NCBI GenBank assembly: GCA_017531585.1
Contig: JAFXKT010000001.1
Location: forward strand, 248,001-312,000
Direction: 5' to 3'
From: Candidatus Saccharimonadota bacterium
Lineage (GTDB): Bacteria; Patescibacteriota; Saccharimonadia; Saccharimonadales; Saccharimonadaceae
Length of the DNA: 64,000 nt
The position numbers and the translations under genes were made by a program. The number at the start of each line of letters is the position of its first letter. The first letter of the stretch is position 1. Under the pieces are notes generated by a model that had not been told where the DNA came from, searched no databases, and saw only the letters and a program-made list of their open reading frames with translations. Positions 33,869 to 53,068 of the stretch are shown one piece after another.

Positions 33869-33977
33869 TTATTTGAATTAAAATCCCCTATCTGGGCGAT
33901 TTTTCGTTTTCGCTCGATCAATAATCGCGCTTCAAACGAAGAACTCACCCACCTAGGGGATTTTCTTTTCAAATAAT
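33868..33977 (+). repeat. Large imperfect inverted repeat after tRNA-Arg
   Basis: ATTATTTGA (33868-33876) pairs with TCAAATAAT (33969-33977), and AAAATCCCCTA (33880-33890) with TAGGGGATTTT (33954-33964): 20 paired bases separated by 3-4 nt internal loops. The 63-nt apical region contains one of the CAATA mini-hairpins. The right arm ends in TTTT and may terminate tRNA transcription. Confidence 0.75.
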
Positions 33978-34113: not shown

Positions 34114-34201
34114 GGAAGCGTGGCCGAGTGGTTGAAGGCGCACGACTCGAAATCGTGTGGGCAGCAATGTCTCGGAGGTTCGAATCCTCTCGCTTCCGCC
34201 A
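34114..34201 (+). tRNA. tRNA-Ser (anticodon CGA)
   Basis: Acceptor GGAAGCG/CGCTTCC, anticodon stem CACGA/TCGTG with loop CTCGAAA, long variable arm, T arm with GGTTCGAATCC, encoded CCA. Reads TCG. Confidence 0.95.
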
Positions 34202-34319
34202 GAAACAAAGGAGCCGATAGGCTCATTTTTTCTGCGAAGAGAGGATGAGAGCCTAGGTTCGTCCAATACCCGGTCGCTTGCGACGACGGCGTATTGTTCA
34301 TATCCTCTCGCTTCCGCCA
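34184..34319 (+). repeat. Duplicated tRNA-Ser 3' end flanking a hairpin element (copy A)
   Basis: The 18-bp tRNA 3' end from T-loop to CCA (34184-34201) recurs at 34302-34319. Before the second copy lies a core (34256-34301) that starts GGTTCGTCC, resembling a T-loop opened by an insert. It forms stem CAATAC (34264-34269) / GTATTG (34291-34296) around GTCGC-tt-GCGAC. A related core follows tRNA-Ser(GGA) at 52902-52952. Confidence 0.75.
34211..34231 (+). terminator. Terminator of tRNA-Ser(CGA)
   Basis: GAGCC-gata-GGCTC followed by A and six T. Confidence 0.85.
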
Positions 34320-34328
34320 CAATAAAAA

Positions 34329-34352
34329 GCAACCGCAAGGTTGTATTTTTTG
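34329..34352 (+). terminator. Second terminator downstream of the tRNA-Ser(CGA) element
   Basis: CAACC-gcaa-GGTTG followed by a T-run. Confidence 0.75.
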
Positions 34353-52744: not shown

Positions 52745-52834
52745 GGAGAGGTGTCCGAGTGGTTGAAGGAGCACGCTTGGAAAGCGTGTATGCGGGCAAC
52801 CGTATCTGGGGTTCGAATCCCCATCTCTCCGCCA
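52745..52834 (+). tRNA. tRNA-Ser (anticodon GGA)
   Basis: Acceptor GGAGAGG paired with CATCTCTCC region, anticodon stem CACGC/GCGTG with loop TTGGAAA, long variable arm, T arm GGGGTTCGAATCCCC, encoded CCA. TATAAT promoter box just upstream (near 52730). Reads TCC/TCT. Confidence 0.95.
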
Positions 52835-52846
52835 GTAATGAAAAAT

Positions 52847-52866
52847 GACCCGAAGGGTCTTTTTTG
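52847..52866 (+). terminator. Terminator of tRNA-Ser(GGA), first copy
   Basis: GACCC-gaa-GGGTC followed by six T; repeated exactly at 52983-53002. Confidence 0.85.
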
Positions 52867-52982
52867 TTGCTGGTGGAGAGTATGTGGCGAGAAGACCAGT
52901 GGGTTCGTCCAAAACCCGGTTGAGCGAAGCGAGACGACGGCGTTTTGTTTATATCCCCATCTCTCCGCCAGTAATGAAAAAT

Positions 52983-53002
52983 GACCCGAAGGGTCTTTTT
53001 TG
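52983..53002 (+). terminator. Terminator, second copy
   Basis: Exact duplicate of the terminator at 52847-52866. Confidence 0.85.
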
Positions 53003-53068
53003 TTGCTGGTGGAGTAATGTGTTTATGCTAAAATTATAGTAAGTATTTTCTGGTGAGGAGAGATAAAA

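Follow-up and report, generated by a model that had tools for sequence, protein, structure and literature searches.

RtT-like repeat units carrying tRNA 3′ halves behind tRNA genes of Saccharibacteria

Two repeat units behind serine tRNA genes

The window analysed here is a stretch of 64,000 nucleotides (positions 248001-312000 of contig 4) from the 1.01-Mb genome of a Candidatus Saccharimonadota bacterium. Two of its tRNA genes, tRNA-Ser(CGA) and tRNA-Ser(GGA), are each followed on the same strand by a short repeat unit, and no unit stands behind either of the remaining tRNAs, Ser(GCT) and Arg(GCG). The units are built in a constant order: the tRNA 3′ half from the T-loop to CCA (R), a terminator, an arm (R′) reverse-complementary to the tRNA 3′ half and ending in GGATGAGA, a small hairpin ending in GGTTCG, a core hairpin, and the tRNA 3′ half once more. 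The unit is 118 bp long at tRNA-Ser(CGA) and 136 bp long at tRNA-Ser(GGA), with the same anatomy and different sequences. The features are as follows.

34114..34201, + strand: tRNA-Ser(CGA), T-loop junction at 34183/34184 (ARAGORN; Rfam tRNA model, 59 bits)
34184..34301, + strand: complete 118-bp unit, RtT-like in anatomy, from the tRNA 3′ half to TTCAT (direct repeat at a spacing of 118; L285 has, and L287 lacks, a like-built unit at this tRNA)
34184..34201, + strand: R copy 1, ATCCTCTCGCTTCCGCCA (sequence)
34209..34231, + strand: terminator-like hairpin GGAGCC..GGCTC TTTTTT, carried by the unit (sequence and fold; unlike the outer terminator)
34234..34246, + strand: R′, reverse complement of R (GCGAAGAGAGGAT), then the shared motif GAGA (outer stem covaries with tRNA type)
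34249..34261, + strand: small hairpin GAGCC-TA-GGTTC(G) (paired in 13 of 13 aligned units)
34256..34301, + strand: core, GGTTCGTCC plus hairpin CAATAC..GTATTG with a variable tip, plus TTCAT (model R1, 71.8 bits; covariation)
34302..34319, + strand: R copy 2, a tRNA 3′ half with no tRNA body (sequence)
34323..34351, + strand: outer terminator, probably native (G011 and G133 have the same sequence behind their last unit)
52745..52834, + strand: tRNA-Ser(GGA) (ARAGORN)
52817..52952, + strand: complete 136-bp unit at tRNA-Ser(GGA) (62-nt identical repeat 52817-52878 / 52953-53014; three tandem copies in G133)
52873..52897, + strand: R′ arm of the tRNA-Ser(GGA) unit, imperfect (sequence; complementarity score)
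52902..52952, + strand: core of the tRNA-Ser(GGA) unit, stem CAAAAC/GTTTTG (model R1, 61.7 bits)
52953..52970, + strand: R copy 2 at tRNA-Ser(GGA) (direct repeat)

The first-pass annotation had described a duplication of the tRNA-Ser(CGA) 3′ end 118 bp downstream, and the 3′ half at 34184-34201 indeed recurs exactly, at this spacing, at 34302-34319; at tRNA-Ser(GGA), the identical repeat covers 62 bp at a spacing of 136. The same core had been noticed behind both tRNAs, with a matched change in its stem. GGTTCGTCC occurs at 34256 and at 52902, with no other exact match in the window and a chance expectation of 0.22, and the stem reads CAATAC/GTATTG behind the former tRNA versus CAAAAC/GTTTTG behind the latter, as described. 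The picture of a T-loop opened by an insert was half right: GGTTCG forms a small hairpin with a strand that adjoins the R′ arm (GAGAGCC-TA-GGTTCG lies between GCGAAGAGAGGAT and the core stem at tRNA-Ser(CGA)), and what is repeated includes a terminator as well as the tRNA 3′ half. That annotation overlooked that the arm at 34234-34246 reverse-complements the tRNA 3′ end, that tRNA and core have a terminator between them, and that tandem and gene-bearing versions are present in related genomes. The fold has a z-score of -4.8, and none of 200 shuffles was as good.

Separately, a palindrome of ~90 bp (AATCCCCTATCTGGGCGATTTTT...CACCTAGGGGATTTTC) lies downstream of tRNA-Arg(GCG) at 33880-33975. Look-alikes of other sequence stand behind tRNAs or units in L011, L023, L298, L300, and L302, and together they are possibly a second tRNA-adjacent repeat family.

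Conserved fold, host tRNAs, and presence or absence of whole units

Covariation is seen in the core and in the outer stem. Standard pairs fill 96.5% of pair cells across 74 distinct cores, and nine of the 13 core pairs are altered on both sides, values reached by none of 500 shuffles. In the outer stem, formed by R′ and the tRNA 3′ half, 31 distinct units make 4.48 of six pairs at positions 5-10 with their own tRNA versus 2.44 with others, a result equalled in none of 2000 permutations and only diluted by a couple of units that are false anchors inside tRNA bodies. A looser complementarity test over all copies gave the same sign with a smaller gap (6.9 versus 5.2), and several units at Gln(CTG) and Lys have an imperfect R′. 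Among 13 aligned units, seven of the ten outer-stem pairs are altered on both sides, and stem pairs changed on a single side are of the G.U type on the given strand. The strand test on the core counted 11 G.T against six A.C, which clearly favours neither strand, and the energies of the top and bottom strands, folded as DNA, are similar.

Five loci (L355-L357, L362, and L368), mostly of genus g18, with L362 belonging to G260 of the window's genus, have the same R′, GAGA, and GGTTCG part joined to different core hairpins, so that the core is the module that can be exchanged. L357 additionally shows three partial tRNA-Arg ends in series.

A pattern search allowing two mismatches found copies in 18 of 41 relatives. 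A covariance model of the core (R1) found seven copies in the window's genome; 33 of the genus's 45 genomes have copies, as do 11 other members of the family, for a family total of 44 genomes out of 394. The units are sparse in the family, and they are almost absent from the rest of the order: in an order-wide sample, the sole match outside the family was weak (E 0.008) and had no adjoining tRNA, for which reasons it is judged to be due to chance. An intact tRNA ends at most 260 nt upstream on the same strand in 57 of 86 examined copies, and many of the others are second or third units of arrays, lie behind extra genes, or sit at contig ends. The host tRNAs are Gln, Ser, Lys, Glu, Arg, and Leu.

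The duplication starts at a constant position of the T-loop, TTCGA/NTCC in the tRNA, and the junction after the core is TTTAT/NTCC in the window's genus; the base N is A, G, or C as set by the tRNA, and the junction is constant at more than ten tRNA species. Empty sites, which the annotation had proposed to look for, were found. At tRNA-Ser(CGA) of G008 (L287), the tRNA is followed by ATCAGATGATATG and its own terminator, with no unit, and in G210 (L285) exactly one unit intervenes at the same place. The same ATCAGATG sequence stands behind the second tRNA 3′ half of G210 as at the unit-less site; the native terminator is still intact further downstream and differs from the one within the unit, which therefore came with the unit. 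Among the loci listed for tRNA-Ser(CGA), seven of 30 hold a unit. Such comparisons of filled and empty sites record the gain or loss of whole units and fit either direction, since ordinary recombination between two R copies (18-62 bp) can also give empty sites by deletion. A small element that targets tRNA T-loops, as the first-pass annotation had suggested, fits these observations well, given a junction that is always TTCGA/NTCC at many tRNAs and the existence of empty sites.

Units also occur in tandem and together with genes, some of them of defence type. G133 carries three units at Ser(GGA), and two at tRNA-Ser(CGA) against a single one in the window; arrays of one, two, and three copies are seen across G000 and G133. 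At tRNA-Gln(UUG) of G000, a second segment contains a ClbS/DUF1706 gene and ends in a decayed core; G011 is without this segment, and the flanks of the two genomes are 95-96% identical. Array genes elsewhere encode a DUF1771 protein, an EcoO109I-type restriction enzyme with its methylase (type II restriction-modification), a Fic protein, a macro-domain protein, a sacsin/TmtA-like protein, and a Schlafen-type helicase. Behind tRNA-Ser(CGA) of G016 and G257 (L282 145-169 and L297 1644-1668), there is a different small hairpin, GCTCTAATTT..AAAGGC, and after it the tRNA acceptor end is repeated in shorter form (GCTTCCGCCA), which would suit a second type of element that uses the acceptor stem.

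Relation to the enterobacterial RtT repeats

At the Rfam gathering threshold, the window yields tRNAs only. A permissive scan aligned the RtT model (RF00391, rttR of E. coli) over its full length to 34224-34319 with 16.8 bits against a gathering score of 45, a value that alone proves nothing because an unrelated snoRNA model scored slightly above RtT in the permissive scan of a short stretch. The same model gave 29.1 bits (E 3.4e-4) at a sister unit, L019, which is under the gathering score, and 48.5 bits at a unit of another genus (G306), which passes it. In the reciprocal direction, model R3, made from saccharibacterial units only, matched RtT units in register at six of seven enterobacterial loci, with a best E of 1e-4 in 58 kb and every match falling on an RtT unit. 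The six comprise every locus whose tyrTV or Salmonella proK array is intact; the E. coli proK locus (L377) gave no match at E values up to 1. A model of the core alone fails to reach E. coli because the cores differ.

The anatomy agrees as well. Like the saccharibacterial units, RtT units stand in tandem behind a tRNA and each repeats the tRNA 3′ half; both have an R′ arm reverse-complementary to that half, the identical motif GGATGAGA plus AGGTTCG ahead of the core, and a T-loop junction, which is TA/ATCC in RtT. The E. coli tyrTV locus reads GGGGAAGGATGAGAAGC..CCAAGGTTCG, core, GAGTA/ATCCTTCCCCCACCACCA, and the proK (tRNA-Pro) loci of E. coli and Salmonella run tRNA, terminator, R′, core, tRNA 3′ half, terminator, like those of the window. 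The core hairpin of the saccharibacterial units is another and a smaller one; these units occur at at least six tRNA isotypes, as against Tyr and Pro at the RtT loci examined, usually have their terminator ahead of the core, and form gene-bearing arrays. On this anatomy and the reciprocal model matches, we class the units of the window as RtT-like, a distant relation of the rtT repeats, and not as RtT proper, since the window copies score under the Rfam threshold. That they represent a new branch of such units outside Enterobacterales is a reading in which we place middling confidence. The new aspects are the host phylum, the range of tRNAs occupied, a distinct core, presence or absence at the level of the unit, and arrays that bear genes.

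Whole-unit differences are also seen in E. coli, where the unit between tyrT and tyrV is present in MG1655 and 2018-10-1CC and absent in Br_112_kylling and ST80; filled and empty loci differ by exactly this one unit, 175 bp, and the native trailer is retained. E. coli genomes have from one to 14 RtT matches, with zero in 731 of 5426 at the search sensitivity used. For the rtT repeats of E. coli, no function is known to have gained acceptance since they were first described. RtT is treated as a structured RNA, with a tandem GA motif noted, in PMC8250186 and PMC7657543, and our literature search, which covered few subscription journals, found no link of RtT to mobility or to other phyla.

Two further enterobacterial loci deserve mention. 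In Salmonella Infantis (L380 3171-3420, proK), the third RtT unit is interrupted in its core by a reading frame that we take to resemble the N-terminal part of a P4-type integrase. In Klebsiella (L378 5600-7025), the RtT array is separated from narI by genes for an Lrp/AsnC regulator and a DMT transporter, which are absent from this position in E. coli.

How the units may spread

Integrase genes, which the first-pass annotation had named as a thing to check, accompany none of the copies in the window's genome. G000 has a single tyrosine recombinase of the Xer type, a type present across the order; it scores 252 bits with the XerD model, below the cut-off, and 128.7 with the integron integrase model (cut-off 265), and no IntI-type integrase was found. 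No serine recombinase, IS110, or Y1 transposase occurs in G000. Across the 45 genomes of the genus, the DEDD transposase of an IS110 bridge-RNA element is found in none and the Y1 transposase of a REP/Y1 transposon in four, and neither these nor a serine or second tyrosine recombinase is consistently present with the units. A tRNA-integrating element with its own tyrosine integrase is likewise set aside, as the minimal units measure ~105-145 bp and the cargo genes read include no integrase. A search for dif, relevant to an IMEX that uses the host Xer, did not pin down the dif site of the window's genus. In G180, a conventional integrative element with a tyrosine integrase and an excisionase-like gene lies in tRNA-Arg(TCG) (L131 297-2300, G180:C3) and adjoins an RtT-like unit, the tRNA being repeated from the anticodon loop; its integrase, near the core, belongs to this separate element and is rejected as the mover of the unit.

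The viral contigs, phages, and plasmids searched held no true saccharibacterial-type unit. In a pattern scan of contigs, the matches listed were mostly due to chance, and of the loci tested only those of Saccharibacteria scored clearly with the model. The RtT matches inspected on plasmids are displaced tyrTV-nar chromosome segments, and apart from such segments no circle, phage, plasmid, or viral contig carries a unit; the PLSDB 'plasmids' with RtT from E. coli, Salmonella, and Klebsiella (L381-L384) are circular pieces of chromosome around purU-tyrTV-nar.

Besides RtT, the closest parallels lie with three known systems. The units resemble integron attC cassettes in combining a target site with a folded site, in their tandem arrangement and cargo genes, and in the imperfect palindrome with a bulge and a variable tip; unlike integrons, they have no integron integrase and no GTTRRRY junction, target the tRNA T-arm, and are mostly gene-less. 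With tRNA-targeting integrative elements and tycheposons they share the duplicated tRNA 3′ end and the restored tRNA, but those islands carry an integrase of their own, which units of ~105-145 bp do not. The rr sRNAs of E. coli, as described in PMC8144298, are similarly short segments with two flanking terminators behind a stable RNA operon; they follow rRNA operons, whereas the units are duplications of tRNA T-loops.

The reading we prefer, to which we would give an even chance of being right, is that of a structured DNA repeat unit anchored at the T-loop, gained or lost whole and able to carry cargo, with the units spreading as DNA. A DNA-level repeat inserted at, and lost from, the T-arm fits the constant junction in the T-loop, the tandem growth, the array genes, the terminator between tRNA and unit, and the tRNA 3′ half that each unit brings with it and that keeps the tRNA intact. 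The covariation of the core, the match of the outer stem to each tRNA, the filled and empty sites, and the variable array number likewise speak for it. As in integrons, the conserved fold may by analogy be a recombination site. The unit would exist as a circle or an excised strand in which core-TTTAT is joined to NTCC, and would recombine with the T-arm of its cognate tRNA at TTCGA/NTCC, restoring the tRNA and leaving a structured site adjacent, ready for the next unit or a gene cassette, a scheme that resembles attI x attC in outline. The folded strand, its R′ paired with the split T-arm, might present the half-site of the tRNA as attC does to the integron integrase; a need for the R′/R outer stem to fold would explain why R′ tracks the 3′ half of each tRNA. 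The reaction would call on the resident Xer, on a trans-acting enzyme encoded by a different element, or on RecA working through the R repeats. Against the scheme stand the failure to find a recombinase accompanying the copies or a mobile contig with a unit in the material searched, the possible origin of empty sites by deletion between R copies, with homologous recombination a serious alternative mechanism, and the G.U-type single-sided changes, which would be expected of an RNA too. An extension of this scheme, in which the RtT units of E. coli and Saccharibacteria alike are attachment sites of an unrecognised integron-like system, with the folded strand rebuilding the T-arm for a trans-acting or Xer recombinase and defence genes being loaded beside tRNAs, strikes us as unlikely.

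The units could instead be a structured RNA gene, an RtT-like sRNA copied behind tRNAs and released from read-through tRNA transcripts; it would act via its three-way junction, R′ could base-pair with the 3′ half of the tRNA, and slippage would alter the tandem number. In its favour, RtT has an Rfam entry and, in E. coli, an annotation as an sRNA that is processed out of the tyrT transcript; the structure covaries and has G.U pairs on the strand as given; and a tandem GA motif is reported for RtT (PMC7657543). Against read-through, a terminator is usually present within the unit and separates it from the tRNA, in Saccharibacteria as at enterobacterial proK; the unit ends ahead of another terminator, a promoter is not demonstrated, and the 731 E. 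coli genomes without a match and the want of an established function there also weigh against an RNA gene, which we consider rather unlikely. We doubt still further that the units are a selfish or passive palindromic tandem repeat of ancient origin, with no dedicated enzyme and no function, propagated by homologous recombination and slippage via the tRNA 3′ half and by natural transformation between strains. The R repeats of 18-62 bp are ready recombination sites, the difference between G011 and G000 is as expected from recombination between cores, and no recombinase accompanies the copies; such a process nevertheless leaves unexplained the spread to more than ten tRNA species with a constant junction, the tRNA-matched R′, and the compensatory changes in the core. 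An assembly artefact at a repeat deserves almost no credence: most genomes used are draft assemblies, but the same structures recur in dozens of independent assemblies, and homologous units stand in finished E. coli genomes. The repeat unit is real, and is neither chance nor artefact.

With the RtT anatomy present in a remote phylum, at many tRNAs and together with unit-less sites and arrays that hold genes, an enterobacterial oddity among RNAs becomes a broader class of repeat unit anchored at tRNAs, the mobility of which can be tested in E. coli itself.
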